Shown here: piece after piece, positions 31,116-64,000 of the stretch
Position numbering within the stretch: the first letter of the stretch is position 1
Layout: each line of letters starts with the position of its first letter
IMG/VR virus record: IMGVR_UViG_3300044609_000483
Coordinates: 1-64,000 of that record
Direction: 5' to 3' (one strand)
DNA: 64,000 nt
Source: a virus
Notes under the pieces: model-generated
What the model was told of the DNA's origin: nothing
The model's input: only the letters and a program-made list of their open reading frames with translations
Databases searched by the model: none
Translations under genes and position numbers: made by a program

Positions 31116-31116
31116 A

Positions 31117-32178: not shown

Positions 32179-32182
32179 AATT

Positions 32183-32437
32183 TTATATTTTGTTTATTAT
32201 TTTATTCATCAATAATGTGTTGAATGCAATTTTAAAAGGGATAGATAGTTCATTACTTTTCATCCCTAAATTTTCATCCACTTCATTACTTTCGGTTAAT
32301 ACAGTTTCCAACATCGATTTTACAATCTCATATTTTACTAAATGTATTTGGGTTTCTCCGGACTCCCCGTCAAATTGGACATATTGGTCAATAACTTCTA
32401 AGTCCACATAGTAATTTTCGTTAAATACTTGAAACAT
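32183..32437 (-). CDS. Unknown 84-aa acidic protein
   Basis: No recognised domain. The N-terminal half is beta-like (FNENYYVDLEVIDQYVQFDG) and the C-terminal half helical (IPFKIAFNTLLMNKIINKI). It overlaps the HAD-like gene by 17 nt and lies 4 nt ahead of the GT4 gene, so it is translationally coupled to both. Real coding status is likely from this packing; role unknown. Confidence 0.6.
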   Translation of the reverse strand: MFQVFNENYYVDLEVIDQYVQFDGESGETQIHLVKYEIVKSMLETVLTESNEVDENLGMKSNELSIPFKIAFNTLLMNKIINKI

Positions 32438-35815: not shown

Positions 35816-35835
35816 ATGTTTATATGGTTTTATTA

Positions 35836-36465: not shown

Positions 36466-36477
36466 CTTTATTTAATA

Positions 36478-37951: not shown

Positions 37952-37953
37952 AT

Positions 37954-38568: not shown

Positions 38569-38569
38569 A

Positions 38570-39337: not shown

Positions 39338-39356
39338 ACTTTTATTTTTATATTAT

Positions 39357-41578: not shown

Positions 41579-41581
41579 GAT

Positions 41582-42139: not shown

Positions 42140-42858
42140 TATTTTAATTCTTTTAATTTTTTTATAGTGTCAATCAAAACATTAACATCTTTCTCACAAT
42201 ATTCTGAGATTGCCTCTAATTTATTTTCATTCCAGTATGCATGATGTACTTTATCTCCGGTTACTTCACCGTCTTTTGGTGTTGGTATGTCAAGACAAGT
42301 ACACATAAGATCTAAAGAACCAATTGAGGTATATGATCCGTATTGCCATATTTCTTTAGTATCAATCGCCTTTACTTCCCAAGGTTTTGTATCGTAAGAA
42401 GGTAGAATCTTTGAAGGCATAATTCCATTTATAATCATTCGTTTTGCCAACATAGGTATGTCAAAGTTTTTAAGGTTGTGACCACAAAGATAAAAATCCA
42501 ACTTGTGACATCTATCTAAAAGATTTCTTACATCACTTAAAAGTTTTTTTTCATCATCACCAGAAAAAGTTTGTTTTTTAATGTCACCATTATCCATAAC
42601 AAACGCCATAGAAACACATACAATTTTTGCAAACTCTGGAACTAAAGCGGCTCTTTTTACAAACACCGTATTTTTTAATTGATTTTCATCTTGGTTGTTT
42701 AAATTATCTTCAGGAAATCTTTTTAGGAACCAATCAAAATATTTTTCAAATTGACTTGCAACTCCTGGATTATTTTCTTGACAATTTTCCCAGTCCTTAC
42801 ATCCACCAACTGTTTCTATATCAAGAAACAAAATTTTTGTTATAGGTATATTAATCAT
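42139..42858 (-). CDS. 3'-5' exonuclease, DNA polymerase B exo-like, 239 aa
   Basis: DEDD nuclease: Exo I motif ILFLDIETVGG (9-19; D13, E15), Exo II HNLKNFDIPMLAKRM (about 146-160), Exo III YCEKDVNVLIDTI (about 219-231, DEDDy type). It resembles the PolB exonuclease-like family that is detached from a polymerase. It removes 3' mismatches or degrades single strands; a role in phage replication or repair is plausible. It overlaps dut by 1 nt. Confidence 0.8.
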   Translation of the reverse strand: MINIPITKILFLDIETVGGCKDWENCQENNPGVASQFEKYFDWFLKRFPEDNLNNQDENQLKNTVFVKRAALVPEFAKIVCVSMAFVMDNGDIKKQTFSGDDEKKLLSDVRNLLDRCHKLDFYLCGHNLKNFDIPMLAKRMIINGIMPSKILPSYDTKPWEVKAIDTKEIWQYGSYTSIGSLDLMCTCLDIPTPKDGEVTGDKVHHAYWNENKLEAISEYCEKDVNVLIDTIKKLKELK

Positions 42859-42861
42859 AAA

Positions 42862-44076
42862 TTATTTTATTAAAGATTTGTAAAAAGATGCACGTTCGGC
42901 CGTCACAAAATTAAGATTATATTTAACACTTACTGTTTCATACAACCTCTCACCAAGATCAACAATCATATTTGGATTGTCAACCAATTTCTTAATATTT
43001 TTTGCCCAATCACTATGGTTGTTATTTTCATTAACTAATAAAGCGTTACCGTCGGTAAATTGACCTTTATCTAGTGCGTGTTTTAAATCAATGGTATATG
43101 GACCAACATTTGAAGCGATTAATGCTTTTTTATAGAACCCAGCCTCAATAACTTTTAATTGTGATTTCATTCTATTAAAGATGTGATTTTTAATAGGAGC
43201 TAGTGATATATCAAACTTGGAATAGTTTTTTGCGTATGAGCTTACAGGACGAGTCCAAACACGAACATAATTTTCATTTTCAACACCAGAGTAATCATTC
43301 TCAACAAAAGTATTAAGATAATCTTTATATGTTGGTGTTATTATTTTGTAATCATTAGTAAATATTTGTTCATATTTAACCCAAACGGTTTCTTCAGGTT
43401 TAATAGGTCTTTGAGTTTTTTCTCCTGTTTGTTGATTTATTTCGGTAACGGTACCTCTTATATCAAACCCACAAAGATAAAATTGTAACTTATCTTGTTG
43501 TTGTGATAGTTTTGAAACTGTTCCATCAAGTAATTTTAAATCGTGTAAATGTGATGAACCACCTAACCAACCAACTCTAATTTTTTCTGAAGGTAATGTT
43601 GGTTCATTAAACTGTGGATCATTCGGGTCGATTGCATTTGGCAAAACAATTACATTTTTATTAAATTTTCTTATTTCATTGGCAAAAATTTCTGTTGTTG
43701 TAATAACATAATCGGCAACTTTTAAATTTGCAACAATTTTTTCGTATAATTTATTTTGAATAATTAATTGGTGAATCGGGTGTTCTTTTGTTGGTAACCA
43801 ATAATCATCTATATCACCAACAACAACAATTCCCATAGCTTGTAATTGCTTAATAAGTATAGGTGTGTTATCGTAATCAGACCCAATTGTTCTATGGAAA
43901 TGTACAATTTGATATTTTTTCCAAAAATTAATGTCGTTTACATTTGGTTGATACTCAATATCCACATGGAAATCATCTGGATACATATTCTGTAATTTAA
44001 TGTGGGGGTCAGTTGACCTAAATTTACCAACACCTGATTGGTCTGAAGGGAGTACTAGTACATTGATTTTTTCCAT
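42862..44076 (-). CDS. GT4-like glycosyltransferase, 404 aa
   Basis: GT-B type. The N-terminal half has VDIEYQPNVNDINFWKKYQI and DIDDYWLPTKEHPIHQLIIQ. ATEIFANEIRKFNKN-like text (VITTTEIFANEIRKFNK) and VIVLPNAIDPNDPQF mark the domain linker, VRVGWLGGSSHLHDL (about 187-201) the nucleotide-sugar binding start, and FDISLAPIKNHIFNRMKSQL the C-terminal donor site with a Lys-x-x-E (KVIEAGFYKKALIASNVGPY). Likely adds a sugar from a nucleotide donor. It heads the minus-strand glyco-island after a terminator gap. Confidence 0.8.
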   Translation of the reverse strand: MEKINVLVLPSDQSGVGKFRSTDPHIKLQNMYPDDFHVDIEYQPNVNDINFWKKYQIVHFHRTIGSDYDNTPILIKQLQAMGIVVVGDIDDYWLPTKEHPIHQLIIQNKLYEKIVANLKVADYVITTTEIFANEIRKFNKNVIVLPNAIDPNDPQFNEPTLPSEKIRVGWLGGSSHLHDLKLLDGTVSKLSQQQDKLQFYLCGFDIRGTVTEINQQTGEKTQRPIKPEETVWVKYEQIFTNDYKIITPTYKDYLNTFVENDYSGVENENYVRVWTRPVSSYAKNYSKFDISLAPIKNHIFNRMKSQLKVIEAGFYKKALIASNVGPYTIDLKHALDKGQFTDGNALLVNENNNHSDWAKNIKKLVDNPNMIVDLGERLYETVSVKYNLNFVTAERASFYKSLIK

Positions 44077-49447: not shown

Positions 49448-52400
49448 ATGGCTTTTGTAATAATTAACGATTTAACTGGTGGAACTACATCTACCGTTAG
49501 ATGTTCACAAGGAAATTCAGCTGCTGCGGTGTATTCAACGGTAAGTGGAGGTAGAGGAAATACTTCCAATAATACTTACTCTATAATCGCCGGAGGAGCT
49601 TATAATAAATCAACCGGATATGGGTCAACCGTTGGTGGTGGTTCTTATAATAGTGCAATAGGTAGATATTCTGTAATCGCTGGTGGTTATTGTAATACCG
49701 CAAATGATACAAAATCAATTGTACTTGGTGGTGATAATAACGTTTCTAGATCTGGTTCTACGGTAACAGGAGGAGATAACAATACCGGTCTTGGGTGTGA
49801 TTCATTTATAGGTAATGGTGAATTTAATACAACTCTTGGTAATTATTCATCAGTTGTTGGTGGTTCTTATAATACCGCAGTTGGAACTAGAAGTGTTGTA
49901 CTTGGTGGTAGTAATATTATTGGTACTCAATCAAACACAGTATATGTGCCACAATTAAATGTTGATACTGTCGGGTCAACAACATCTCTAAATAATTTAG
50001 GAATAGATTTAAATGGAAACGTTGTTGTTGGTAATGATGTATTTGCAACAGGTCTTACTTTTAACAATAACACAGGTTTATTAACTTTGAATAATAACAA
50101 TGGTGTTAATCTAACAACTGGAGGATTTATTACTCAAGATGTATTTGCAACAGGTTTTACTTTTGACACTAACACTGGTTTATTAACTTTAGATAACAAC
50201 AATGGAGTTAGTTTAACAACTGGAGGATTTTTAACACAAGATATTTTTGTTACCGGAGGTACGTTAGATTATAATACACAAACATTAACATTAGATAATA
50301 ATGATGGTAGTAATGTTATTATTAATGGACTACAAGATTATTTCTTAACTGGTTTAACTTTTGATAATAGTGGATTCACATTAACGGCATCCGTTAACGA
50401 TGGTAATTCTTATAGTGTAAGTTTAGGTATTTTAGCAACCGACTTAGGTTTAACCGGAGGTACTTACAACCCTAATACTGGTGTTGTTACATTTACTAAT
50501 ACTTCTGGACAAACTGTTGACGTATCAGGTTTTACAACCGGATATACAGATGTTTTTTTAACTGGTGGAACTTTTGCCGCTGGAGATTTAACTTTAATAA
50601 ATACTGATGGTTCAACAGTAACAATCACAGGATTTACGGCATTAGATTCATATGTTACAGGAGGAACATATGATAACAATACGGGAACTTTAACGTTAGA
50701 TAGTCAAATACAATCTGTTTTAATAACCGGGTTTACAACAGGGTTTACGGACATTTATGTTACCGGAATGACTTTTGATACTCTTAATTATGATTTAACA
50801 ATAGAAAGAAATGACGGATTTACCGATACGGTTAATTTAGGTATACTTTCTTCAGATATGACAATTACTGGAGGTACTTATGACCTTAACAGTGGTACCG
50901 CAACATTTACAAATAGTAGTGGAGGAACATTTAATGTTACCGGTTTCTTAACTGGATACACAGATGTTTACGTAACTGGAGGATATTACACACCATCAAC
51001 AGGAACAATAACAATACAACAACAAAACGGTACTGTTAATATTTCTGGAATTGATGACGCAGTTATTATAGCGGGGACAGGAGGATCCTCAACAGTTAGA
51101 AAAAATAATAATAACAGTGCTTCGGGACAATATTCAACAGTAATTGGTGGTTATAATAACGTAGCAACACAGTATGGTGCTACTGTTGGTGGAGGTGTAT
51201 CCAACCTTGCAAACAGCGTTACCGATACAGTTGCGGGTGGTTATTTTAACTCTGCGACTGGTGCGTATTCATTTGTTGGTGGAGGTTATTCAAACCAAAC
51301 ACAAGGTTATATGTCAAGTATTGTTGGTGGTTGGGGTAATAAAACTTGTAATAATCAAGCTACTGTTGGTGGTGGGTGTTTTAACACATCATTAGGGGTT
51401 CAATCTTCAATTGGAGGTGGATGGAATAATACATCATTAGGGACTCAGTCATCAATTGGTGGTGGACTTTATAACATATCACTAGGGTGCTATTCATCAA
51501 TTGGTGGTGGTGGATATAATAAATCAACTTGCGTAAGCGCATCAATTGGTGGTGGTTACAGTAATACATCTTCTGGAGTATCAACAACAGTAAGTGGAGG
51601 TTACCGTAACGCAGCATCAATATGGAATTCAACAATTGGTGGTGGTGCGTGTAACACAACATTACCAACCGCTTGTGGGTCAGTGATTAGTGGGGGTAGA
51701 TTAAATACAACATCCGGTTTATATTCAATGATACTTGGTGGTTGTAATAATACCGCAGTTGGAACTAGAAGTGCAGTTGTTGGTGGTCAAAATATTATAT
51801 CAACTAATAACGACACTGTTTACGTACCATATTTAAATATTCAAACAGTAGGAGCAACAACTCCAGTTTCAAACTTAGCGGTTGATGGTTCAGGTAATGT
51901 TGTTGTTGGTTCGTCAACAACAGATTATTTCTTAACTGGTTTAACATTTGACACTAGTGGATTTACATTAACGGCATCCGTTAACGATGGTAACGATTAT
52001 ACGGTAAGTTTAGGGATTTTAGCAACTGACTTAGGTTTAACCGGAGGTACATATAATTCTAGTACAGGTGTTGTAACATTTACAAACACATCTGGACAAA
52101 CAGTTGATGTGTCAGGGTTTACAACTGGATACACTGATGTGTTCTTAACTGGTGGTACTTTTGCTGCTGGAGATTTAACTTTAACAAATACTGACGGATC
52201 AACAGTAACAATTACAGGATTCACAGATTACTATGTAACTGGTGGAACTTATTCTAATGGTTCAATAACATTAGATAGACAAAATGGTTCTGTTACAATA
52301 AATGGACTTTATACAGGTGGTACGGATACATTCTTAACCGGAGCTACTTATAGTGCGTCAACTGGAGAATTAACATTACTCCAAAATAATGGACAAGCCC

Positions 52401-53536
52401 CAATCAGTGTATTAGGATTCCAAACATTAAATAATTTTGTAACTGGAGCAACATACTCTAACGGAACTTTAGATTTATCATTAAATAATGGAAACGTTGT
52501 TACCGCAACTGGTTTCTTAAATAATGATTATTATGTAACTGGAGGTACATTTGATAATAGTACTGGTATCTTAAACTTAGAAAGACAAAACGGAACAGTT
52601 TCTATTGGTGGAATTACATTTACTGGATTAACTGGTGTTATAGTTGCGGGTACTGGAGTAGGTTCTTCAATAAGGGCTGGAAACTCAAACATAGCTTCAG
52701 CAAATTCGTCAATTGCGTTAGGTTGTACTAACTCTTCATATTCTAACGGATCTTCAATTTTAGGTGGTTTTAATAACTATGCCGCTTCCCCTTATTCAAC
52801 AATTGCGGGAGGTAGATCTAATACAAGTTCTGGATATTACTCATTTATTGGTGGTGGTTGTAGTAATACATCATCATGTTATCAAACCGTAGTTGGTGGG
52901 GGTATGTTAAATATTTCATCAGGGGTTTCAACCGTAGTTGCTGGTGGATTTAGTAACCAATCTTTAATATGGAATTCAACAATTGGGGGTGGTGCTTGTA
53001 ATATTAATACATTAACCGCTTGTGGTTCTGTGATTAGTGGAGGTAGATTAAACACAAACTCATGTCTTTATGGGTCAATTGGGGGTGGTTATAATAATAT
53101 GGTATTATCTCCATCATCTTTTGGTAGTATATTTGGTGGTTGTGGAAATAAAGTTTGTGGTCAGTATGGTTACATTGGTGGTGGTAGATCTAACGTTGTT
53201 AGATCATCGTCAACCAACGGTACTGTATCTGGAGGTTTATCTAACACATCGGTAGGTTTAAACGCAACTGTTGGTGGAGGAACTCTTAACACATCGGCAG
53301 GAGATTTCACATCAATTATCGGAGGGTGTTCAAACAAAGCGACTTGTATTCACTCACATATTGTTGGTTGTAATATAACTTCTGATAGACCATATCACAC
53401 ATATGTTAATAACTTTACTGTAAGTGGAGGTGGACAACCGACTACTGAAGTAAGAATGGATGGTTTACCAACTACTGATCCTGGGATAACCGGATACGTA
53501 TGGAATGATAGTGGTACATTAAAAATATCTCTTTAA
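49448..53536 (+). CDS. Long fibre with YadA-head repeats in three modules, 1362 aa
   Basis: Each module combines a head block of about 14-residue repeats (S-x-x-x-GGG-x-x-N-x-x-x-G-x-x type, e.g. STVGGGSYNSAIGRYSVIAG) and a beta block of TGGT...L..DGS..TITGF units. Head blocks lie near residues 20-165, 540-790 and 1060-1310; beta blocks lie between. Linker segments NTVYVPQLNVDTVGST / DTVYVPYLNIQTVGAT join them. The C-terminus ends TDPGITGYVWNDSGTLKISL, a common phage-fibre ending. YadA-type repeats form trimeric left-handed rolls in adhesins. There is no signal peptide or membrane anchor, so it is a phage fibre, not an autotransporter. Ser/Thr/Asn-rich surface; followed by a terminator. Confidence 0.75.
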   Translation: MAFVIINDLTGGTTSTVRCSQGNSAAAVYSTVSGGRGNTSNNTYSIIAGGAYNKSTGYGSTVGGGSYNSAIGRYSVIAGGYCNTANDTKSIVLGGDNNVSRSGSTVTGGDNNTGLGCDSFIGNGEFNTTLGNYSSVVGGSYNTAVGTRSVVLGGSNIIGTQSNTVYVPQLNVDTVGSTTSLNNLGIDLNGNVVVGNDVFATGLTFNNNTGLLTLNNNNGVNLTTGGFITQDVFATGFTFDTNTGLLTLDNNNGVSLTTGGFLTQDIFVTGGTLDYNTQTLTLDNNDGSNVIINGLQDYFLTGLTFDNSGFTLTASVNDGNSYSVSLGILATDLGLTGGTYNPNTGVVTFTNTSGQTVDVSGFTTGYTDVFLTGGTFAAGDLTLINTDGSTVTITGFTALDSYVTGGTYDNNTGTLTLDSQIQSVLITGFTTGFTDIYVTGMTFDTLNYDLTIERNDGFTDTVNLGILSSDMTITGGTYDLNSGTATFTNSSGGTFNVTGFLTGYTDVYVTGGYYTPSTGTITIQQQNGTVNISGIDDAVIIAGTGGSSTVRKNNNNSASGQYSTVIGGYNNVATQYGATVGGGVSNLANSVTDTVAGGYFNSATGAYSFVGGGYSNQTQGYMSSIVGGWGNKTCNNQATVGGGCFNTSLGVQSSIGGGWNNTSLGTQSSIGGGLYNISLGCYSSIGGGGYNKSTCVSASIGGGYSNTSSGVSTTVSGGYRNAASIWNSTIGGGACNTTLPTACGSVISGGRLNTTSGLYSMILGGCNNTAVGTRSAVVGGQNIISTNNDTVYVPYLNIQTVGATTPVSNLAVDGSGNVVVGSSTTDYFLTGLTFDTSGFTLTASVNDGNDYTVSLGILATDLGLTGGTYNSSTGVVTFTNTSGQTVDVSGFTTGYTDVFLTGGTFAAGDLTLTNTDGSTVTITGFTDYYVTGGTYSNGSITLDRQNGSVTINGLYTGGTDTFLTGATYSASTGELTLLQNNGQAPISVLGFQTLNNFVTGATYSNGTLDLSLNNGNVVTATGFLNNDYYVTGGTFDNSTGILNLERQNGTVSIGGITFTGLTGVIVAGTGVGSSIRAGNSNIASANSSIALGCTNSSYSNGSSILGGFNNYAASPYSTIAGGRSNTSSGYYSFIGGGCSNTSSCYQTVVGGGMLNISSGVSTVVAGGFSNQSLIWNSTIGGGACNINTLTACGSVISGGRLNTNSCLYGSIGGGYNNMVLSPSSFGSIFGGCGNKVCGQYGYIGGGRSNVVRSSSTNGTVSGGLSNTSVGLNATVGGGTLNTSAGDFTSIIGGCSNKATCIHSHIVGCNITSDRPYHTYVNNFTVSGGGQPTTEVRMDGLPTTDPGITGYVWNDSGTLKISL
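50336..52223 (+). repeat. Direct repeat pair, 301 bp, 1587-bp offset, in fibre gene
   Basis: Copies 50336-50636 and 51923-52223 have equal length and differ at scattered, mostly third positions. They encode the same beta block (DYFLTGLTF through VTITGF). The offset is 529 codons, which is one fibre module. Confidence 0.85.
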
Positions 53537-53600: not shown

Positions 53601-55253
53601 ATGGCATATGTTATTATAAACGACCCTATTGGTGGACTAACATCAACAGTAAGATGTGATAATCAAAACACCGCAATTAGACAATATGCGACAGTAACAG
53701 GTGGTTATCAAAATACCTCATCAGGAAAATATTCATTTGTTGGTGGTGGACAAAATAACACATCGTCTTGTTATAACTCGGTTGTTGGTGGAGGGTTTTT
53801 AAACACATCTTCAGGATTTTGTTCTGGGATTCTTGGTGGTTCATTAAACGTTGCCAATGGTGAGTTTTCATTTATTGGTGGTGGTAAAAATAATACCGCA
53901 TCTGATTCTTTATCGGTTGTTGCTGGTGGAACATTTAACGTTTCCACTTGTGAATGTACCGTAGTTGGTGGTGGGGAAAATAATACGGTTAATTCCCTTT
54001 ATGGGATAATCGGAGGTGGTTTAAACAACACATCTATTGCTGACTTCTCAATTGTTGGTGGTGGTTGTAATAATGCAAACTTAGGAAGTTCTTCTGTTGT
54101 TGGTGGGGGTAACTCAAACACATCGGTATCAAACTTTTCTGTGGTTGCCGGTGGTACAAGAAATCAAAACTATGGGACTTACGCCACAATATCTGGAGGT
54201 ATTTGTAATAAAGCTTATTTAGATGGTGTAACAATCGGGGGTGGTTCATTTAACACCGCAATAAAATATAATTCAGTTATTGCTGGGGGATATGGAAATA
54301 CCGTTTCAGGATATGGGTCAACCGTATCTGGGGGATATACAAATACCGTAATTGGGGATTGTTCTTTTGCGATATCAAATAATTCGGTTATTATGGGAGA
54401 TAGAATTGTGGTTATTGGTGGTTCTGGTATTACAGGAACAACAGATGACACAGTTTATGTTCCTTATTTAAATATTGGAAATATATCAACAGGCACTTCA
54501 GTTAATAGTTTAGGCATTGACTCAAATGGTTTGGTTATTGTTGGTAATGATTTTACTGGTAATACACCATCATTATCTGAAGTAATTTCAATTGGTAATG
54601 AAACTGGTAGTGATATTGTTATGACAAACGGAACCTTGATAAAATCTAATTTAGAGTTTGCTTCATTATCGGTAAATGATTTTACATCTATTTCTGGAGA
54701 AATTAATATGGGTGTTACAAAATCTGGAGTTACGTCAAATTCATTGTTTAATTTAAGATCAGGCGGAATTACACTCACATCATCTGACGACAATAATGAG
54801 TCCCAAATTAGTGTTGATAACGGTCAGATTTATATTTATACCAATAATAATGATTCTGGATCTTACGTAGATTTAAACAACTTTAGATATAACACTGCAG
54901 ATGTTACAATAACTGGAGGTACTAGTGCAAACATTATAGAAATACTTATCACACCACAAGAATTTAGAACAACAAATGTAAAAATTTGGTGTAATGCTTA
55001 TGATAACAATTATTTATCAGGATTAACACAAGAATTTACATCTGGATATTTATTATCTGGAGATACAGGTTCATTGTATGAATTGTCAGCAGACGGACCT
55101 ACTATAAATCTAAACCAGTCAACATTTCCTTCAAGTGTTACAAGTGTTTTGACTTATGCCGACGACACTATAATTGTTAGTGTTCAAAATAACGATGAAG
55201 GTGATACATCCACAATAATTAATTGGAGATGTCGTGCAAGGTGGTCATCTTAG
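53601..55253 (+). CDS. Second YadA-repeat fibre, 550 aa
   Basis: Paralogue of the 1362-aa fibre. The shared start MAYVIINDPIGG-like / MAFVIINDLTGG, one head-repeat block (about 20-265; e.g. SFVGGGQNNTSSCYNSVVGG), and the linker DDTVYVPYLNIGNISTG are followed by a different tail. That tail (residues about 290-550) is beta-rich (GLTQEFTSGYLLSGDTGSLY), without the TGGT units, and closes INWRCRARWSS. Same host-contact role likely; the tail difference suggests a distinct tip domain. A terminator follows. Confidence 0.75.
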   Translation: MAYVIINDPIGGLTSTVRCDNQNTAIRQYATVTGGYQNTSSGKYSFVGGGQNNTSSCYNSVVGGGFLNTSSGFCSGILGGSLNVANGEFSFIGGGKNNTASDSLSVVAGGTFNVSTCECTVVGGGENNTVNSLYGIIGGGLNNTSIADFSIVGGGCNNANLGSSSVVGGGNSNTSVSNFSVVAGGTRNQNYGTYATISGGICNKAYLDGVTIGGGSFNTAIKYNSVIAGGYGNTVSGYGSTVSGGYTNTVIGDCSFAISNNSVIMGDRIVVIGGSGITGTTDDTVYVPYLNIGNISTGTSVNSLGIDSNGLVIVGNDFTGNTPSLSEVISIGNETGSDIVMTNGTLIKSNLEFASLSVNDFTSISGEINMGVTKSGVTSNSLFNLRSGGITLTSSDDNNESQISVDNGQIYIYTNNNDSGSYVDLNNFRYNTADVTITGGTSANIIEILITPQEFRTTNVKIWCNAYDNNYLSGLTQEFTSGYLLSGDTGSLYELSADGPTINLNQSTFPSSVTSVLTYADDTIIVSVQNNDEGDTSTIINWRCRARWSS

Positions 55254-55348: not shown

Positions 55349-56092
55349 ATGTTTGTAAGTGTTTGTAATAAAGATTATCTAATCGGGTTTGAAGTAATGT
55401 TAAAATCATTAATTGATAACAACCCAAGAGTTGTAAATGAAAATATTCCATTTGTTATAATTAGTAACGATTTAAACCCTGAAGATTTAATTACCTCAAG
55501 AAAAATATACAACAATATTCATATAAAAAAGTTTGATACTGAAAAATATTTTGAGATAGAAAAATTAAAAGACCAACAAAGAATGTTTGGTGATTATACA
55601 AAATATGAAATTTTTTCATTAACGGAATTTGATAAGATTATATTTTTAGATTGTGACATTGTTGTATTAGGTAACATAGATTATTTGATTGATTATGAAA
55701 AACCTTTTGGTGCAGTAAGAGAACTTTATATTGACCAATATAACACTGGGGTAATGGTAATTAGTAAAGAATTTTTAAATGAAAAAATAACAAATGATTT
55801 AATTCATTTAACAACAATTTATGGAATTACAGAACATTTAGACCAAGATATTATTGACCACTACTTTAGTGATATTATCACCCCAATTTCTATCGAATAC
55901 AATTATTTAAAAACATATTCTAAAGAAATATTTAAAAATTCGGGTTTACCTAAATATATTAAAATATTACATTTTATTGCAAAAAAACCTTGGCAAAACA
56001 AACCATTGGTCTTTTTAGAAGAAGGAACAATTTGGCAAGAAAAATATTGGTTTGATTATTATTCTAAAATTCTTAAATTAAAAAATGGTTAA
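55349..56092 (+). CDS. GT8-family glycosyltransferase, 247 aa
   Basis: Retaining glycosyltransferase of the glycogenin/LPS galactosyl type. FVSVCNKDYLIGFEVMLKSL at the start, FLDCDIVVLGNIDYL (about 99-113) with the D-x-D (D101, D103), then YNTGVMVISKEFL (about 131-143) and a late His in KILHFIAKKPW. It likely starts or extends a short glycan. It is first gene of a cassette that overlaps the next by 8 nt and lies directly after the two fibre genes. Confidence 0.8.
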   Translation: MFVSVCNKDYLIGFEVMLKSLIDNNPRVVNENIPFVIISNDLNPEDLITSRKIYNNIHIKKFDTEKYFEIEKLKDQQRMFGDYTKYEIFSLTEFDKIIFLDCDIVVLGNIDYLIDYEKPFGAVRELYIDQYNTGVMVISKEFLNEKITNDLIHLTTIYGITEHLDQDIIDHYFSDIITPISIEYNYLKTYSKEIFKNSGLPKYIKILHFIAKKPWQNKPLVFLEEGTIWQEKYWFDYYSKILKLKNG

Positions 56093-56993
56093 AAGACATT
56101 ACGATAATTCAGAACTATTAAAATATACTGAAAGAGATCCTAATTTATCTAATTTTAAAGATAAAGAACTTTTATTACATTTTGATTCTTTTTGTTTGGG
56201 AGATACGATATGTTTTTCATCCCTTATAGACCCGTTTATGGAATATCATAAACCAAAAAAAGTTTATATATCAACATTCTTCCCCCACTTACTAAAGTCA
56301 ACAAATCCAAAGTATGAGTTTATAAACGCAAATCAATCTAAATCTATTGAGATAGATAAGTTAATTGATGTTGGGTACCATAAAGATAATATGTCCCATA
56401 CTCTTGGTGGAATGTTTTATGCTGCAAAAGATACAATGTTCTTACCTCAAGAAACAAAACCAGGTAAATGTCCAGTAATACCCAAACAAAGAATCATAAA
56501 TAAAAATAAAATAACGATGGGTCCTGAAACAATAAAGGAAATATCAAAATGGGAATATAAGGATGGTTGGCAAACAATCATAAATGAATTGGTTAATAGT
56601 AATTTTGATGTTTATAATGTTTCGTATGAAAATACATTAAATTTACAAAACGCAAAAGGATTTCACGGAAACAACGATATAAATGTTTCATTAAATCATA
56701 TTTTAGAATCAAGATTTTTTATTGGTTTATCTTCTGGGTTATCTTGGTTGGCGTGGGCGTATGGAGTTCCTGTTGTTATGATATCAAACTTCACTAAAAA
56801 ACAAAACGAGTTTGAATGTTTTAGAGTTGAAAATCCTTATGTATGTAACGGATGTTTTAATATGTTTCCAAACATTAAAAGTAGTTGTCCAATATTTTTA
56901 AACACTGAAAGAGAAAATGAATGTCATAGGAGTATAACACCAGAAATGGTTATTAATAAAATAAACCAAGTAATTAACTTTACTAATAGTTAA
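56085..56993 (+). CDS. Autotransporter O-heptosyltransferase-like (TibC/AAH type), 302 aa
   Basis: The C-terminal half matches the bacterial autotransporter heptosyltransferase family, which glycosylates Ser of adhesin repeats. Visible are FFIGLSSGLSWLAWAYGVPV (211-230), RVENPYVCNGCFN, and CHRSITPEM (280-288). Four Cys (254, 257, 268, 280) are spaced as in the iron-binding finger of TibC. The N-terminal LLLHFDSFCLGDTICFSS is the GT-B entry. Homologues act in trans on self-associating autotransporters (AIDA-I, TibA, Ag43). Here the target could be the adjacent YadA-like fibres. It overlaps the GT8 gene by 8 nt. Confidence 0.7.
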   Translation: MVKRHYDNSELLKYTERDPNLSNFKDKELLLHFDSFCLGDTICFSSLIDPFMEYHKPKKVYISTFFPHLLKSTNPKYEFINANQSKSIEIDKLIDVGYHKDNMSHTLGGMFYAAKDTMFLPQETKPGKCPVIPKQRIINKNKITMGPETIKEISKWEYKDGWQTIINELVNSNFDVYNVSYENTLNLQNAKGFHGNNDINVSLNHILESRFFIGLSSGLSWLAWAYGVPVVMISNFTKKQNEFECFRVENPYVCNGCFNMFPNIKSSCPIFLNTERENECHRSITPEMVINKINQVINFTNS

Positions 56994-57013
56994 TTAATTT
57001 ATATAATAAAATT

Positions 57014-57895
57014 ATGGAAAAAAAATATAGTATATTTCACGTAGAGGGTGGTTTAGGTAAACATGTTTTATCAACCGCGGTTGCAAAATGTATAAAAAAT
57101 AATCATCCGGATAGAGAACTAATAATAGTTTGTGCATATCCGGAAGTGTTTTTAAATTTGGATTATGTTGATAGGGTTTATCGTGTTGGTATGACACCTT
57201 ATTTTTATGATGATTACATTAAAGATAAGGAAAGTTTAATTTTTAAACACGAACCATATTTTACATCGGACCATATTAATAAAAAATTACCTCTAATTGT
57301 TAACTGGTGTAAGTTACTTGGATTAGAATATAATGGAGAACAACCATCCCTTTCTTTTAATTTAAGGCAACAACAAATAGCTCAGAATAAGTGGGCAAGA
57401 GATAAACCAGTAATGGTTATTCAAACAAACGGAGGACCACTACAAGAACAACCGTTCCCATATTCTTGGACTAGAGATATTCCTTATGATGTTGCCCAGA
57501 AATTAGTTGACCACTTCTCAAAATATTATCATATTATCCAAATATGTAGAGATAAATCAAATGTGTTAAATAATGTGGAGGCGTTTTTTGAATCAATGTC
57601 AAATATGGAATTATTTTCCTTACTGGCCTATTCTCAAAAAAGAATATTAATTGACTCTTGTTTGCAACACGCATCGGCAGCAATGGGGTTACAATCAACT
57701 GTTTTATGGGTAGGGACATCACCAATAGTATTTGGTTATAATTTACATAACAATATAATTGCAACATTACCCACAACCGTTAAATTACCAGATAGTTATT
57801 TATTTGATTATAATTTTAATGGTACAGTACACGAATGCCCTATGTTTGATACAAACATTTTTGACATAAATGAAATAATAGAAAGTTTAAAATAA
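57014..57895 (+). CDS. GT9-like heptosyltransferase-family protein, 293 aa
   Basis: GT-B protein with IFHVEGGLGKHVLSTAVAKC (about 7-26), the GT9-like acceptor-domain entry GG.G. ..., and a C-terminal RILIDSCLQHASAAMGLQST (about 214-233) with S/D-x-x-x-x-H-x-A-A/G. This is the ADP-heptose-type donor site. VLWVGTSPIVFGYNLHNN follows. In the family these enzymes transfer heptose or a related sugar. With the TibC-like gene next to it, two successive sugars on the same acceptor are possible. Confidence 0.65.
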   Translation: MEKKYSIFHVEGGLGKHVLSTAVAKCIKNNHPDRELIIVCAYPEVFLNLDYVDRVYRVGMTPYFYDDYIKDKESLIFKHEPYFTSDHINKKLPLIVNWCKLLGLEYNGEQPSLSFNLRQQQIAQNKWARDKPVMVIQTNGGPLQEQPFPYSWTRDIPYDVAQKLVDHFSKYYHIIQICRDKSNVLNNVEAFFESMSNMELFSLLAYSQKRILIDSCLQHASAAMGLQSTVLWVGTSPIVFGYNLHNNIIATLPTTVKLPDSYLFDYNFNGTVHECPMFDTNIFDINEIIESLK

Positions 57896-57900
57896 TAATT

Positions 57901-58719
57901 ATGGTACAAAAGATATTTTTTCAAAGCTCATTACCAAGAGCTGGATCAACACTACTACAAAACGTAATGGGTCAGAATCCCGATTTTTATGTAACACCAA
58001 CATCTGGTGTTTTAGAATTAGTTTACGCATCAAGATCAAACTATTCCACATCTCCAGAATTTAAAGCTCAAGACCCTGAATTAATGAAGAGTGGGTTTTT
58101 AAATTTCTGTAATCAGGGTATGTTAGGATTTTTTAATGGTGTAACCGATAAACCTTACGTTTTAGATAAAAGTAGAGGGTGGGGAGTACATTATGGGTTT
58201 TTAAATTCATTCTATCCAAATCCAAAAATTATTTGTATGGTTAGAGATTTAAGAGGAATATTCTCTTCAATGGAGAAAAACTTTAGAAAAAACCAACATA
58301 AGGATTCTGGTTTGGTTGACCACTCACAAATGAAAGGAACCACAACAGAAAAAAGGATTGATATTTGGGCTCAGTCACAACCTGTTGGTATGTCATTAGA
58401 AAGGTTATATCAAATGTTTAAAGAGGGTATTAACCAAAATGTTTTGTTTGTAAAATTTGAGGACTTTACATCAAACCCAAAAAAGGAGATGCAAAGAATA
58501 TACAATTATTTAGAACTTCCATATTTTGAACACGACTTTAATAATGTGGAACAAATAACTCAAGAAGATGATGAGGTTTATGGGGTATACGGTGACCATA
58601 CAATAAAAAGTAAAATAGAACCTATTAAAAGTGATTATAAAGAAGTTTTGGGTGTTAATGCCTCAAACTGGATTAAAAGTAATTACCAATGGTTTTATGA
58701 CCAATTTGGATATTTTTGA
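57901..58719 (+). CDS. PAPS-dependent sulfotransferase, 272 aa
   Basis: Sulfotransferase family. The 5'-phosphosulfate loop is LPRAGSTLLQN (11-21). The 3'-phosphate motif is VRDLRGIFSSMEK (114-126), with the Arg and Ser that bind the 3' phosphate of PAPS. The acceptor segment YNYLELPYFEHDFNNVEQIT lies near 201-220. The enzyme sulfates hydroxyls of sugars or peptides. Soluble, no membrane anchor, so it acts inside the infected cell. It ends immediately before the APS kinase gene, which makes its donor. Confidence 0.85.
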   Translation: MVQKIFFQSSLPRAGSTLLQNVMGQNPDFYVTPTSGVLELVYASRSNYSTSPEFKAQDPELMKSGFLNFCNQGMLGFFNGVTDKPYVLDKSRGWGVHYGFLNSFYPNPKIICMVRDLRGIFSSMEKNFRKNQHKDSGLVDHSQMKGTTTEKRIDIWAQSQPVGMSLERLYQMFKEGINQNVLFVKFEDFTSNPKKEMQRIYNYLELPYFEHDFNNVEQITQEDDEVYGVYGDHTIKSKIEPIKSDYKEVLGVNASNWIKSNYQWFYDQFGYF

Positions 58720-58721
58720 TT

Positions 58722-59171
58722 ATGAGAGATAATAAAATATATTGGTTTACTGGTCAACCTGGGGCAGGAAAGACAGTTTTGTCTTTAATGTTAAAAACGG
58801 TTTTAGAAGATAAAAATAAAGTTTTTCATATTGATGGGGATGAACTTAGATCGTTATTTAACAACCAAAAATATGGTAGAGAAGGTCGTGAGGAAAATAT
58901 TAAAAGAGCTCAAGACATTGCAAAATTTATCTTAGCCCAAGGACATACTGTTATCGTTAGTTTAGTTGCTCCATATAAAGAACTTAGAGAAAGTTTTAAG
59001 TACGATTTAGGTGATTTACTTGTAGAGTTTTATGTTCATACTACAGACATTAGAGGTAGAGAACATTTTCATACTGACGAATATGAACAACCAACAGAAA
59101 ACTTTATTGACATTGATACCACAAATGTTGACCCTCAAATATCTTTAAACAAAATAATTGAAAATTTATGA
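58722..59171 (+). CDS. cysC: Adenylylsulfate (APS) kinase, 149 aa
   Basis: Start at the ATG 58722; an upstream TTG at 58716 lies inside the sulfotransferase gene. The motif series is Walker A GQPGAGKT (11-18), HIDGDELR (36-43), NQKYGREGREENIKRAQDI (48-66) and SLVAPYKELRE (80-90): all characteristic APS kinase segments. It phosphorylates APS to PAPS. Slightly shorter than cellular CysC (about 175-200). The gene overlaps the next by 4 nt (ATGA). APS itself must come from host ATP sulfurylase or from the adjacent nucleotidyltransferase. Confidence 0.9.
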   Translation: MRDNKIYWFTGQPGAGKTVLSLMLKTVLEDKNKVFHIDGDELRSLFNNQKYGREGREENIKRAQDIAKFILAQGHTVIVSLVAPYKELRESFKYDLGDLLVEFYVHTTDIRGREHFHTDEYEQPTENFIDIDTTNVDPQISLNKIIENL

Positions 59172-59632
59172 CCTGGGAAGTTAAAAATCATGGAGGAAAT
59201 CCTACAACGAATGAAAGTAAGAAATATGCAATCTTTATAGGCCGTTTCCAACCATATCATTATGGTCATATAGAGTTAATACAACAAAAATTAAATCAAG
59301 GTATTCCGGCCCTTATTATGGTTAGAGATATTGAACCTGATGATAAAAATCCATTTACAACAGAACAAACCGTTACAATGATTGAGAAATATCACAAATC
59401 AAAAGGTGATAATGTTAAGGTTATTGTTATTCCAGATATTGAATCTGTTAATTACGGTAGAGGTGTTGGGTATGAAATAAATGAATTTACTCCTCCAGAT
59501 AATATTGGTTTTATTTCCGCAACAGGTATTAGAAACTCAATATCAAAAGAAGATGATAAATGGAAATTTATGGTTGACGAATCAATACAAGAAGATATAA
59601 TTAATTATTTGACGGATGAAAACACAAAGTAA
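59168..59632 (+). CDS. HxGH nucleotidyltransferase, NMNAT-like, 154 aa
   Basis: Nucleotidylyl-transferase superfamily. IFIGRFQPYHYGHIELIQQK (22-41) holds the H-x-G-H (31-34) and the late ISATGIRNSI (near 118-127) is the I-S-x-T-x-I-R signature. Closest by eye to NadM/NMN adenylyltransferases (GRFQP-H-GH). Its place directly after APS kinase raises the possibility of an adenylyltransferase acting in sulfate activation, but ATP sulfurylase motifs are not present, so NAD-type chemistry is the conservative call. Overlaps at both ends (4 and 17 nt). Confidence 0.7.
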   Translation: MTWEVKNHGGNPTTNESKKYAIFIGRFQPYHYGHIELIQQKLNQGIPALIMVRDIEPDDKNPFTTEQTVTMIEKYHKSKGDNVKVIVIPDIESVNYGRGVGYEINEFTPPDNIGFISATGIRNSISKEDDKWKFMVDESIQEDIINYLTDENTK

Positions 59633-60056
59633 AACTTACCAAATTAGATTTAATACAGTTTCCGAAACCAAAGATAATAGGTGGAGATTGATTGAAAATG
59701 GAAATGAAATATTAGTTTCAGATATTATTATTGATGGTAATACTTATACCACAAAAGATTGGTTGCCAGAAATAAATGAATATAAATGGCATATTAGTTG
59801 TGTTGGTCACTGTAAAATTAAAAATAATATTGCATATATTAAAACAATTAAAGAAGAATCTGTTTTAGTTAGACATATACTTAAAACAATTACCTATAGG
59901 TTTTTAGGTACTTTAACTACCGTCGGGGTTGCGTATTCATTAGGGGCATCAATAGGGGTCTCAACATTACTTGGGGTTAGTGAGTTAGTGTTAAAACCAT
60001 TTATATATTTTGCTCACGAAAGATTGTGGTATAATTTTATTAAGGTGAAAAAATGA
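59616..60056 (+). CDS. DUF2061 membrane protein with N-terminal domain, 146 aa
   Basis: Residues about 80-146 match DUF2061: VRHILKTITYRFLGTLTTVG, VAYSLGASIGVSTLL, then ELVLKPFIYFAHERLWYNFI. The family core K...TYR..GT..T and Y..HERLW is complete. Two hydrophobic helices would place it in the inner membrane. The N-terminal 75 residues are a separate small beta domain (WRLIENGNEILVSDIIID; WHISCVGHCKI). It overlaps the nucleotidyltransferase gene by 17 nt. Function of DUF2061 is unknown; here it appears as part of the sulfate/sugar cassette. Confidence 0.75.
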   Translation: MKTQSKTYQIRFNTVSETKDNRWRLIENGNEILVSDIIIDGNTYTTKDWLPEINEYKWHISCVGHCKIKNNIAYIKTIKEESVLVRHILKTITYRFLGTLTTVGVAYSLGASIGVSTLLGVSELVLKPFIYFAHERLWYNFIKVKK

Positions 60057-60087: not shown

Positions 60088-61011
60088 ATGAGTCAAATAA
60101 TAACAATACAAAGTATAAATTTTGACGGTGAAATAGCGAATATTTTATTTAAACCGGATAATGATAACATTACCATTAATTTGGGTGATGTAACTCTACC
60201 GTTTATTTTTCAACCAAATTTATTAATACCGGAAAGAGAAGTTTACGGAACATATACTATTTTAATTTTAGGTTCTGATTGTCCAAATATTCTAAACGTA
60301 TTAAGACCAATACCAACTAATACTCCAACACCAACAATAACACCAACAAATACGCCTACCAGAACACCAACACCTACTCCAACACCTACTCCAACAAATA
60401 CACCTACTCCAACACCTGGAGTTACTCCTACACCTACACCAACCCCTGTTTACTTGGCTTACTTGTTTATTGAACCAATAAGTGGAGGAACGTTAATGGG
60501 TCAATGGATGTATGATGGTGGTTTTGATTTCTATGGTTTTAGTAATAATAGTCAACCAACACAAAATCAAACAATATTTAATACAGAACTTAACAGATAT
60601 GTTGGATTTAGTGGTTGGACATCTGGAGAGTTCCCACATATAATAAATAAATCTGTACCTCAAGTAAGTGGAGGTTTAGATTCATTTGGTAATAATATTG
60701 TTGCATACAATTTTACAACAACTGAAATTCCTGAATTCACAATACCTGGAGATTCTTGGTACACCTGGGTAATCCCAATTAGTTTAACAAATAACCAAAA
60801 ACAAATAATAATTGATTTAAGTTCTAATGGTAGCCCAAATATATTTACACCAATATATATGGAATCAACTATTAATTCAAACACATTTACGTATACTGGA
60901 TCAACAATTTTCCAAACAACATATAGAGTTTATACATCATACCCAAGTTCTGAATTTAAATTAACGAATAATGAAAATATTTATTTTAAAGGAAACACAG
61001 TTTCATCATAA
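60088..61011 (+). CDS. Virion protein with Pro-Thr stalk, 307 aa
   Basis: The N-terminal 70 residues are a beta domain (ITIQSINFDGEIANILFKPD). Residues about 74-122 are a low-complexity stalk of PTNTPTPT / PTPTPTP units, coded by repeated CCAACACCTACT-like triplets. The C-terminal about 180 residues form a beta-rich domain (YLFIEPISGGTLMGQWMYDG to the end). This looks like a base domain, a Pro-Thr linker, and a distal domain; Thr-rich stalks are classical O-glycosylation substrates. It is co-oriented 12 nt before the collagen-like gene. Confidence 0.6.
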   Translation: MSQIITIQSINFDGEIANILFKPDNDNITINLGDVTLPFIFQPNLLIPEREVYGTYTILILGSDCPNILNVLRPIPTNTPTPTITPTNTPTRTPTPTPTPTPTNTPTPTPGVTPTPTPTPVYLAYLFIEPISGGTLMGQWMYDGGFDFYGFSNNSQPTQNQTIFNTELNRYVGFSGWTSGEFPHIINKSVPQVSGGLDSFGNNIVAYNFTTTEIPEFTIPGDSWYTWVIPISLTNNQKQIIIDLSSNGSPNIFTPIYMESTINSNTFTYTGSTIFQTTYRVYTSYPSSEFKLTNNENIYFKGNTVSS

Positions 61012-61023
61012 TTAAAAAAAGAT

Positions 61024-64000
61024 ATGTCAAAAGTATATAGAAACCCAATAACCCCAATTGTCTCTTTAGGACCACAATCCGTATTGAGAACTAAACCGTT
61101 TGGGACAACGTTTAGTGTATTAAATATTGGTGGTTATATGGAAGTATATACCACAAATGATTTATTATATACAATACCTTCAGGTCAAACAGGGTATATT
61201 GAATTTATTGGAAATACAATACCTATACATTATTATAAAGGAACTGGTTCGGTATTTTCATTTGACTCAATAGTTCTTAATTCTGATAATATATCTTCAG
61301 GTAGAAGAAGATTAGGTATGTTGGCATATGCTTACAGTGGAGATACGGTTTATCAATTCAATATAGAAAATTACAATACATTATTTTTAAATGCCTCTGG
61401 AGCAACAGGTCCCGGAGGTAGAACCGTAATATTTTCAGACTATGGTACAACAGTTAGAAATAACACACCTGAAGGTGTTGCATTTATTAATGCTTGGTTA
61501 GACAATTCAATTGAAGGTGTAAATGGTGTTACAAGAAATGATTCGGTTTGGAAAGTATTCCCGGAACCTGGTTGTTGTTTAACTGGGGGAACATATTTTT
61601 CAGGTAGTAGTACTTTAGAATTATATAACAATGATGGATCAACAATTATAATAACTGGAATAACCTCTGGGGGTGGTGGTTCAGGAACTAGCGGAACTTC
61701 AGGGACTAATGGTACTAATGGTACTTCAGGTACTAACGGTACTAGCGGAACGAATGGTTCTTCGGGCACAAGTGGTGGTTCAGGAACGGCAGGGTCTTCA
61801 GGAACTAATGGTAGTTCGGGTAGTGATGGGACAAGTGGTGCAAATGGAACTTCAGGAACTAATGGTACATCTGGGAGTAATGGAACTGACGGAACAAGTG
61901 GTATATCCGGAACAAGTGGTATATCTGGAACAAGTGGTATATCTGGAACATCGGGGGATAATGGATCAAGTGGAACCAACGGTACGTCAGGAACGAATGG
62001 AACAAGTGGGACTAATGGAACTTCAGGAACTAATGGAACAAGTGGGATATCTGGAGTAAATGGAACTTCAGGTACTAATGGTACAAATGGTACGGATGGT
62101 ACGGATGGGTCTTCAGGTACAAATGGTACGGATGGGTCTTCAGGTACAAATGGAACTTCAGGTACAAATGGAACTTCAGGAACGAATGGAACCTCAGGAA
62201 CTAATGGTACAGATGGAACTTCTGGGACCAACGGAACAAATGGTACCTCAGGAACATCAGGAACAAATGGTATTAGTGGCACATCTGGAACTAATGGTAC
62301 TTCAGGATTAAACGGTACTTCGGGGACAAATGGAACTTCGGGTACTAATGGAACTTCGGGTACTAATGGAACTTCGGGTACTAATGGTACAAACGGAACT
62401 TCAGGCGCGAACGGTACGTCAGGTACAAATGGGACTTCAGGAACTAATGGTACAAATGGTACAAATGGTACAAGTGGAACCAATGGGACTAATGGAACAA
62501 GTGGAACATCTGGTACTAACGGGACAAATGGAACATCTGGTACTAACGGAACAAATGGTTCAAGCGGTACCAACGGGACATCAGGAACTAATGGAACTTC
62601 GGGTACTAATGGAACTTCGGGTACTAATGGAACTTCGGGTACTAATGGAACAAATGGTTCATCAGGGTCTTCAGGGACTAATGGAACAAATGGTTCAAGT
62701 GGGACCAACGGTACAAATGGTACAAATGGTACTAACGGAACTAATGGTACGAGCGGGACAAATGGTACTAGCGGTACAAATGGTACGAGCGGAACAAATG
62801 GAACTAGCGGAACAAGTGGAATATCGGGAGTAAATGGAACGTCAGGTACTAACGGAACAAATGGTACAAGTGGAACTAACGGAACAAATGGTACTTCGGG
62901 AACAAATGGTAGTTCAGGAACAGATGGAACAAGTGGTACGGATGGAACTAGCGGAACGGATGGTACTAATGGATCTTCAGGAACAGACGGGACTAATGGG
63001 TCTTCAGGGACTAATGGAACAGATGGAACTAGTGGTACGGATGGTACAAGTGGTACAGATGGAACTTCAGGTACAAATGGAACAGATGGATCTTCAGGAA
63101 CTAACGGTACGGATGGTTCAAGTGGTACCGATGGTACAAGCGGAACAGACGGTACTAGTGGTACAGACGGAACTAATGGGTCAAGCGGAACAAATGGAAC
63201 AGATGGTACTTCAGGTACTGATGGAACAAATGGATCTAGCGGAACCGATGGAACTAGTGGTAGTTCAGGTACAGATGGGACTAGCGGTACTGATGGTACA
63301 AATGGTAGTTCGGGAACAGATGGTACAAGTGGAACAAATGGAACAGATGGTAGTTCAGGCACAAATGGTACAGATGGAACTTCAGGTACAAATGGAACCG
63401 ATGGGTCTTCAGGAACTAACGGTACTGATGGATCAAGCGGTACTGATGGAACAAACGGAACAGACGGGACTTCAGGTACTGACGGCACAAGTGGTATATC
63501 TGGAGTAAACGGAACTTCAGGTACAAGTGGAACTAATGGAACAGATGGAACATCAGGTACTGATGGTACTAACGGATCTTCAGGTACTAGCGGAACAAAT
63601 GGGACAAACGGAACTTCGGGAACTAATGGAACAAACGGAACGTCAGGTACAAATGGTACTTCAGGAACTAATGGAACATCAGGTACTAATGGTACTAACG
63701 GAACATCAGGGACAAACGGAACAAATGGAACTAGCGGCACTAATGGAACATCAGGAACAAACGGAACAAATGGAACTAGCGGCACTAATGGAACAAATGG
63801 AACTAGCGGCACTAATGGAACAAATGGGTCTTCAGGAACTAACGGTACAAACGGAACATCAGGGACTAATGGTACAAGCGGAGTTAATGGGGAATCAGGG
63901 ACTTCTGGGACATCAGGCACCAACGGAACAAATGGTACTAATGGAACTTCAGGTACTAATGGTACGAGCGGGGTAAGTGGAGACTCAGGATCTTCAGGCA
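61024..64000 (+). CDS. Collagen-like fibre protein, proline-poor (GT[SND])n, 3'-truncated
   Basis: Open from the ATG at 61024 to the window end (at least 992 codons). Residues 1-216 are a beta domain: MSKVYRNPITPIVSLGPQSV, then from 187 TGGTYFSGSSTLELYNNDGS, which also appears in the YadA-like fibre. From about residue 217 the sequence is uninterrupted Gly-x-y triplets for 775 residues, nearly all GTS, GTN or GTD with rare GSS, GIS, GVN and ESG. I see essentially no Pro after the start. Collagen-like phage fibres are known, but a Thr at almost every X position and no Pro is unusual. Long opposite-strand and shifted frames across this gene are by-products of the repeats. C-terminus outside the window. 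Confidence 0.9.
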   Translation, partial: MSKVYRNPITPIVSLGPQSVLRTKPFGTTFSVLNIGGYMEVYTTNDLLYTIPSGQTGYIEFIGNTIPIHYYKGTGSVFSFDSIVLNSDNISSGRRRLGMLAYAYSGDTVYQFNIENYNTLFLNASGATGPGGRTVIFSDYGTTVRNNTPEGVAFINAWLDNSIEGVNGVTRNDSVWKVFPEPGCCLTGGTYFSGSSTLELYNNDGSTIIITGITSGGGGSGTSGTSGTNGTNGTSGTNGTSGTNGSSGTSGGSGTAGSSGTNGSSGSDGTSGANGTSGTNGTSGSNGTDGTSGISGTSGISGTSGISGTSGDNGSSGTNGTSGTNGTSGTNGTSGTNGTSGISGVNGTSGTNGTNGTDGTDGSSGTNGTDGSSGTNGTSGTNGTSGTNGTSGTNGTDGTSGTNGTNGTSGTSGTNGISGTSGTNGTSGLNGTSGTNGTSGTNGTSGTNGTSGTNGTNGTSGANGTSGTNGTSGTNGTNGTNGTSGTNGTNGTSGTSGTNGTNGTSGTNGTNGSSGTNGTSGTNGTSGTNGTSGTNGTSGTNGTNGSSGSSGTNGTNGSSGTNGTNGTNGTNGTNGTSGTNGTSGTNGTSGTNGTSGTSGISGVNGTSGTNGTNGTSGTNGTNGTSGTNGSSGTDGTSGTDGTSGTDGTNGSSGTDGTNGSSGTNGTDGTSGTDGTSGTDGTSGTNGTDGSSGTNGTDGSSGTDGTSGTDGTSGTDGTNGSSGTNGTDGTSGTDGTNGSSGTDGTSGSSGTDGTSGTDGTNGSSGTDGTSGTNGTDGSSGTNGTDGTSGTNGTDGSSGTNGTDGSSGTDGTNGTDGTSGTDGTSGISGVNGTSGTSGTNGTDGTSGTDGTNGSSGTSGTNGTNGTSGTNGTNGTSGTNGTSGTNGTSGTNGTNGTSGTNGTNGTSGTNGTSGTNGTNGTSGTNGTNGTSGTNGTNGSSGTNGTNGTSGTNGTSGVNGESGTSGTSGTNGTNGTNGTSGTNGTSGVSGDSGSSG
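61902..61955 (+). repeat. 18-bp imperfect tandem repeat coding GISGTS
   Basis: Three successive units of the form GGTATATCTGGAACAAGT (one C/T change, last unit diverged) encode Gly-Ile-Ser-Gly-Thr-Ser. Confidence 0.75.
62332..62385 (+). repeat. 18-bp tandem repeat, three copies
   Basis: GGAACTTCGGGTACTAAT occurs three times in a row (62332-62349, 62350-62367, 62368-62385) inside the collagen-like gene. The same array recurs at 62593-62646. Confidence 0.9.
62593..62646 (+). repeat. 18-bp tandem repeat, three copies (second array)
   Basis: Same unit and copy number as at 62332-62385, 261 bp downstream, so the arrays are probably related by unequal exchange or slippage. Confidence 0.9.

Follow-up and report, generated by a model that had tools for sequence, protein, structure and literature searches.

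What is a phage doing with a run of genes for sugar transfer, probable sulfate activation, and sulfate transfer in the midst of its fibre genes? The question is raised by positions 55349 to 60056 of IMG/VR record IMGVR_UViG_3300044609_000483. The stretch analyzed (the window) is 64 kb out of this 83,869-base virus record; for the part outside the window, coverage was by the PF13469 search only. From its open reading frames (ORFs) the phage is read as T4-like and tailed, and its large terminase has tblastn matches in 2449 phage records, the best being Flavobacterium, Microcystis, and uncultured phages at 27 to 28% identity. We consider it probable (roughly 0.6) that the cassette produces activated sulfate, with which the phage modifies the glycans on its fibres. 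The computed support consists of the gene content, family and fold assignments, the recurrence of the genes, the linkage of a glycosyltransferase and a sulfotransferase to YadA-repeat fibres, the coupling of a small nucleotidyltransferase to an adenosine 5'-phosphosulfate (APS) kinase, and the exclusion of the enzyme CysD in one bacterial order.

The cassette comprises seven plus-strand ORFs flanked on both sides by fibre genes: a GT8 glycosyltransferase (GT8; 55349 to 56092), a TibC/Aah-like glycosyltransferase (56085 to 56993), a GT9-fold glycosyltransferase (GT9; 57014 to 57895), a sulfotransferase (ST; 57901 to 58719) of the type that uses 3'-phosphoadenosine 5'-phosphosulfate (PAPS), an APS-kinase-like protein (APSK; 58716 to 59171), a small HxGH nucleotidyltransferase that is a candidate sulfate adenylyltransferase (NT; 59168 to 59632), and a DUF2061 protein (59616 to 60056). 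A preliminary description of the locus had named these seven genes as a tight run, and the ORFs were found at that place and on that strand. Its assignments also stood, with GT8, ST, APSK, NT, and the DUF2061 protein above Pfam cut-offs, GT9 recognized by predicted structure, and the TibC-like protein by alignment to TibC (4rap). The overlaps of 4 to 17 nucleotides that it reported at several junctions are present at four of the six (GT8/TibC-like, 8; ST/APSK, 4; APSK/NT, 4; NT/DUF2061, 17); the other two junctions are gaps of 20 (TibC-like/GT9) and 5 nucleotides (GT9/ST). The ST/APSK overlap requires that APSK start with the TTG at 58716; with the in-frame ATG at 58722 as the start, the junction would be a 2-nucleotide gap.

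In the pathway that we propose, NT would adenylylate sulfate with ATP to form APS, and APSK, judged by its family and fold, would phosphorylate APS to PAPS. GT9, joined in this phage by GT8 and the TibC-like enzyme, would glycosylate the repeat fibres at Ser/Thr or at other residues, and ST would then transfer sulfate from PAPS to the GT9-built glycan. The DUF2061 protein may be an accessory of the PAPS-making part.

Recurrence of the genes was evaluated in the best 80 of 188 IMG/VR stretches encoding ST relatives, loci that vary in length and many of which are cut. In 63 of these 80 loci, GT9 and ST were no more than 1.2 kb apart. APSK was present in 32, NT in 31, both in 30, and neither in 47, and GT8 together with the TibC-like gene (at least 60% identity) was found in 15. 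By these counts, GT9 and ST form the core shared by most loci, to which the other genes are variably added: the cassette is made up of such parts and is not a fixed set. A single-sequence scan with the TibC-like protein yielded 12 loci, its reach not being comparable with that of the other scans.

It is the GT9-ST core that tracks the fibres. The second YadA-repeat fibre protein of the window (53601 to 55253, plus strand, a candidate substrate) served as the query against 26 long records. Matches are listed for 22 of them (two had no matches, G480 and G492, and two had matches ranking below those listed, G486 and G495), and in 18 of these 22 ST was within 5 kb of a match. The chance expectation is 4.9, which, being based on the matches listed, may be an underestimate where a record has many. 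When loci were clustered at 95%, a YadA-repeat ORF accompanied GT9 and ST in 34 of 39 clusters versus 1 of 22 clusters without GT9 (P = 1e-10). The corresponding fractions were 17/21 versus 1/20 at 85% clustering (P = 7e-7) and 9/12 versus 1/10 at 75% (P = 0.004); one cluster with GT9 and YadA repeats and no ST was excluded at 95% and at 85%. The linkage to fibre genes in relatives that the preliminary description had anticipated was thus recovered. Its interpretation, that the phage builds and sulfates a short glycan on its own fibres, is supported in part: the fibre link holds for the GT9-ST core but not for a fixed cassette, given the rarity of GT8 and the TibC-like gene. Sulfation of fibre glycans appears to be the best reading, and a plausible one, for which the core gains comparative support.

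The part of the cassette that would make PAPS has its own distribution. Among the best 80 of at least 572 viral relatives of NT, APSK was present in 78 loci, in 73 of them within 600 nucleotides of NT or fused to it; a DUF2061 ORF was found in 43 and ST in 22. APSK and NT, with the DUF2061 protein, would be the PAPS-making part, one that also turns up in loci without a visible ST. L052, L106, L110, L117, and the Stenotrophomonas phages DLP_6 and Bhz60 carry an APSK-NT fusion, kinase first, and the DUF2061 domain is fused ahead of APSK in L112, L123, L124, and L129. In the Bacteroidetes loci L232, L237, L241, L242, and L255, the DUF2061 and APS kinase profiles match a single ORF directly before NT. 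The APSK of the window matches PF01583 (E = 8.4e-19; 68.5 bits, above the cut-off of 21.1) and falls below the cut-off of the NCBIfam model apsK TIGR00455 (68.4 versus 138.7 bits); its match to Zeta toxin was taken to reflect a shared P-loop. A model of the APSK-NT fusion of L052, a relative whose APSK is 77% identical to that of the window, has a pLDDT of 92.4, and its kinase part has the APS kinase fold (Z = 21.6 to 7yq1, with gluconate kinases at 17). The KGLYKKA-like segment, which we take to have a role in canonical APS kinases, is present in 20 of 78 kinase ORFs that partner NT. The DUF2061 protein matches PF09834 (E = 2.8e-13; 50.5 bits, above the cut-off of 23.1) over residues 88 to 138 only, and its N-terminal part is unnamed.

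The preliminary description had overlooked that NT looks like the missing sulfate-activating enzyme. NT is 115 to 159 residues long in the loci examined and matches CTP_transf_like (PF01467; E = 6.1e-8) above the Pfam cut-off. Its scores against NMN (nicotinamide mononucleotide) adenylyltransferase families are far below their cut-offs (TIGR01527, 43.4 versus 181.2 bits; NF002243, 48.3 versus 127). An identity as an ordinary NMN adenylyltransferase was set aside on account of these scores and the coupling to APS kinase. The NT part of the L052 fusion model folds as an adenylyltransferase, with Z = 13.9 against the NMN enzyme 1f9a. The structure matches listed for this model are mostly kinases, those to the NT part are NMN and pantetheine-phosphate adenylyltransferases, and ATP sulfurylase appears only within bifunctional chains. 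PF01747, the family of the ATP sulfurylase Sat, was above its cut-off in 0 of 44 NT-bearing records and had no match in the NT of the window; two weak PF01747 matches in phage records (E = 3.2e-4 and 8.3e-4) fall inside NT itself, which would fit an ATP sulfurylase and proves little. When NT and five Sat proteins were compared profile to profile, the probability was 86% over columns 42 to 144, a span that does not include the HxGH motif. In an alignment with the NMN enzyme MJ0541, 34 MJ0541 residues between two blocks face 9 of NT, and the second block alone scores 2.6 bits; that part of the NMN site may be lost in NT is only a lead.

If NT makes APS, it might be expected to stand in for the known ATP sulfurylases, Sat and CysD, in cellular genomes. 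The cellular NT loci were the best 80 of 94 stretches, some of which may be viral contigs; 48 of the 80 were taken for the genome test, and 47 NT-bearing genomes were searched (L212 was left out). APS kinase was present in 46 of the 47, Sat in 5, and CysD in 1. Neither Sat nor CysD was found in 40 of the 46 genomes that have both APS kinase and NT, one of them a 1.59-Mb Dadabacteria chromosome (L219, G067). In the order to which genome G047 belongs, NT scored at least 144 bits in 8 of 395 genomes, and in the 23 others with a match at E 0.001 the score did not exceed 27.5 bits. In a sample of 148 genomes from this order, whose NT status was taken from the 395-genome search, APS kinase scored at least 100 bits in 64 and Sat was found in none. 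Among those with APS kinase, CysD was present in 59 of 59 genomes without NT versus 0 of 5 with NT (Fisher P = 1.3e-7, a statistic that ignores kinship); CysD was counted as present even if shortened or broken by a stop (G158), and a 25-bit match (G188) was counted as absent. The simplest reading of the NT-bearing genomes without Sat or CysD, and of the exclusion of CysD in one order, is that NT replaces ATP sulfurylase.

This replacement pattern makes NT a candidate third class of ATP sulfurylase. We put at about even odds the fuller proposal that NT is a third, unrecognized class derived from a shortened HxGH enzyme resembling NMN adenylyltransferase and occurring in some Flavobacteriales, Dadabacteria, Marinimicrobia, archaea, and many phages; that NT and its kinase together constitute a PAPS synthetase encoded by two genes and totalling about 300 residues; and that this phage uses it to sulfate its own fibre glycans. 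Within the portions of the open-licence PMC literature consulted, no paper turned up on NT as a sulfate-activating enzyme or on phage fibre sulfation.

The surroundings of NT in cellular genomes differ among groups. In the Flavobacteriales loci L184 to L186, L222, and L227, gene clusters come after APSK and NT, and the representatives scanned from them encode an inositol-monophosphatase-family protein, a MatE/polysaccharide flippase, and a sulfotransferase; the first of these may be a phosphatase for 3'-phosphoadenosine 5'-phosphate. Dadabacteria and loci like theirs do not have NT next to APSK. The ten ORFs scanned in the neighborhood of APSK in L260 to L262, L266, and L267 included five resembling sugar-nucleotide epimerases/dehydratases (in L261, twice in L262, and in L266 and L267) and one carbamoyltransferase, with no sulfate-assimilation gene among the ten; this gene content would neither support nor exclude a role in sulfate activation. 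In the Bacteroidetes loci L197, L198, L201, L202, L205, and L215 an extra 132-residue gene lies between APSK and NT, the one scanned (L198) being CTP_transf_like.

Several observations weigh against the proposal that the cassette activates sulfate for fibre glycans. The 47 ST loci with neither APSK nor NT would have to use host PAPS or else have been cut. YadA-type ORFs were missing by the pattern used from 7 of 64 GT9-ST loci, a count that is not deduplicated and in which one contig's loci may count repeatedly; among these seven, L065 does contain YadA-like stretches, which escaped the pattern, and L014 has a different S/N/G-rich protein in that place. Kinship of the records means that the P values for the fibre linkage are overstated; the contrast nonetheless persists after clustering. 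Five NT-bearing genomes carry Sat as well. The closest solved structures to NT, by both sequence and structure, are NMN adenylyltransferases, and the KGLYKKA-like segment is absent from the APSK of the window. In a search confined to the sulfotransferase families PF13469 and PF00685, PF13469 was found in 9 of 33 NT-bearing phage records (picked mostly where no ST was nearby) and none of 24 had PF00685 above its cut-off; DLP_6 and Bhz60, both complete genomes, are among the records without a match.

The glycosyltransferases bear on where the sugars go. GT8 matches Glyco_transf_8 (PF01501; E = 3.8e-22). The TibC-like protein scores below the equivalog cut-off of TIGR04414, hepto_Aah_TibC (E = 2e-36; 125.8 versus 200 bits), and its residues 23 to 296 align with residues 93 to 386 of TibC (E = 1.3e-18). 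Asp40 and Cys254, Cys257, Cys268, and Cys280 are invariant in 15 of 15 phage sequences, corresponding to the LGD-motif Asp and the four Cys of TibC/Aah, which presumably are catalytic and iron binding, respectively. Neither Pfam nor NCBIfam yielded a match at E 0.1 for the GT9-like protein, which does match a PHROG of unknown function (E = 1.5e-5). Its AlphaFold 2 model (ma498e033acee; pLDDT, 91.9) supports a GT9 fold, with matches to the GT9 structure 3tov (Z = 22.4), heptosyltransferases (19 to 20), and TibC (19.0); three plant NDH-complex chains also match at Z = 17 to 18, the next match being at 10.8. The GT9-ST core tracks the fibres and GT8 and the TibC-like gene occur in few ST loci; the sulfated sugar is therefore more probably the product of GT9 than a heptose added by the TibC-like enzyme. 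In the Microcystis phage Mel-JY01 (L097, 4750 to 8430), a long protein annotated as methyltransferase FkbM has a C-terminal part with a 27% match to the TibC-like enzyme.

These enzymes could instead modify a host surface polysaccharide, for serotype change or superinfection exclusion, with adjacency to the fibre genes reflecting late coexpression only. Lipopolysaccharide heptosyltransferases II and WaaC are among the fold matches of GT9, bacterial APSK-NT relatives sit with the flippase cluster and the APS kinase of Dadabacteria and allies with the sugar-nucleotide epimerases, and the phage bears a second glycan-type island at 30309 to 44076. We regard this explanation as unlikely, although the best placed of the alternatives, given that GT9 and ST track YadA-repeat fibres over diverged phages, that the sole PDB sequence match of the TibC-like protein is TibC, which we take to be a protein O-heptosyltransferase, and that no flippase or polymerase family matched in the seven cassette ORFs.

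Another alternative, somewhat less likely still, is that APSK and NT make no PAPS, with NT adenylylating NMN or another substrate and the kinase acting on a different nucleotide, as the CysC-like kinase does in the O-methyl phosphoramidate pathway of Campylobacter. The structural neighbors of NT and the many NT-bearing phage records without an ST match would suit this explanation. It does not sit well with the scores of NT below the NMN-adenylyltransferase cut-offs, the canonical APS kinases among its partner kinases, the 40 of 46 genomes lacking both known ATP sulfurylases, or the mutual exclusion of NT and CysD in APS-kinase-bearing genomes of one order.

ST itself matches PF13469 (Sulfotransfer_3; E = 1.9e-21; 77.7 bits, above the cut-off of 27), PF00685 (E = 7.1e-12), and phrog_27463 (E = 1.7e-42). 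Direct sulfation of fibre tyrosines by ST, with the glycosyltransferase genes acting separately, is improbable: the only PDB sequence matches of ST at E 0.01 are to protein-tyrosine sulfotransferase 1 and the YadA-repeat fibres contain 4 to 5% Tyr, but those matches are weak (best E = 6.2e-6) and the closeness of GT9 to ST in most loci favors a sugar acceptor. In L014, a TibC-bearing phage without YadA-type repeats by the pattern used, a second ORF matching the ST profile (6617 to 7435; 404 bits) adjoins the S/N/G-rich protein.

The proposed fibre sulfation has partial counterparts in known systems. Animal PAPS synthetase, a single chain of APS kinase and ATP sulfurylase, has the same order of kinase and then nucleotidyltransferase as APSK-NT, and an alignment of the L052 fusion with the human enzyme (1x6v) runs through the two parts of the latter in order (278 residues, but a root mean square deviation of 19.4). 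Unlike the animal enzyme, NT is short, is not above the PF01747 cut-off, and is closest to NMN adenylyltransferases. The TibC-like protein shares with the autotransporter O-heptosyltransferases TibC and Aah the aligned region and the conserved Asp and four Cys; it differs in scoring below the equivalog cut-off and in being phage borne, and the fibre repeats of the window are YadA-like, presumably not the autotransporter repeat of TibC/Aah. The cyanophages S-SCSM1, S-SKS1, and S-SRM01 have a related sulfotransferase (27 to 29% identity), in S-SRM01 within 10 kb of a putative tail fibre gene, a glycosyltransferase, and an epimerase, whereas APS kinase and nucleotidyltransferase are not annotated in the stretches shown, where many genes are unnamed. 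Mycobacteriophage virions carry glycans on virion proteins, as proposed here for fibres, but on capsid and tail-tube subunits (Freeman et al. 2023, as cited in PMC12619734), and the passage available from PMC12619734 does not mention sulfate.

Were a virus to sulfate its own adhesion fibres, this charged decoration would be an addition to the known ways in which phages change their surface, and it would probably affect adsorption and shielding. A new class of ATP sulfurylase would account for the initial step of sulfate activation in those genomes in which neither known enzyme was found here, and the pair would be a very small PAPS-making system for biotechnology.

The cassette was described as lying between YadA-repeat fibres and Pro-Thr and collagen-like fibres, and ORFs of these kinds were found on the two sides, all on the plus strand. 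Upstream, a large fibre ORF with YadA-head-like repeats (49448 to 53536), also a candidate substrate, precedes the second YadA-repeat ORF; both are S/T/N/G rich, with repeats mostly spaced at 14 to 15 residues. Downstream are two further candidate substrates, a Pro-Thr-rich protein (60088 to 61011) and a collagen-like ORF with GTSGTNG repeats (61024 to 64000) that extends past the window. The Pro-Thr ORF had a tblastn match in 27 of 28 loci with the TibC-like gene at 60% identity or more, a count that in places includes several loci per contig and that low-complexity stretches may help. The arrangement is retained in related contigs and is therefore not due to chance. The second glycan-type island, read from ORFs on the minus strand, contains several glycosyltransferase-like and FkbM-like methyltransferase ORFs and one NAD-epimerase-like ORF, interspersed with ORFs resembling PhoH, dUTPase, and exonuclease.

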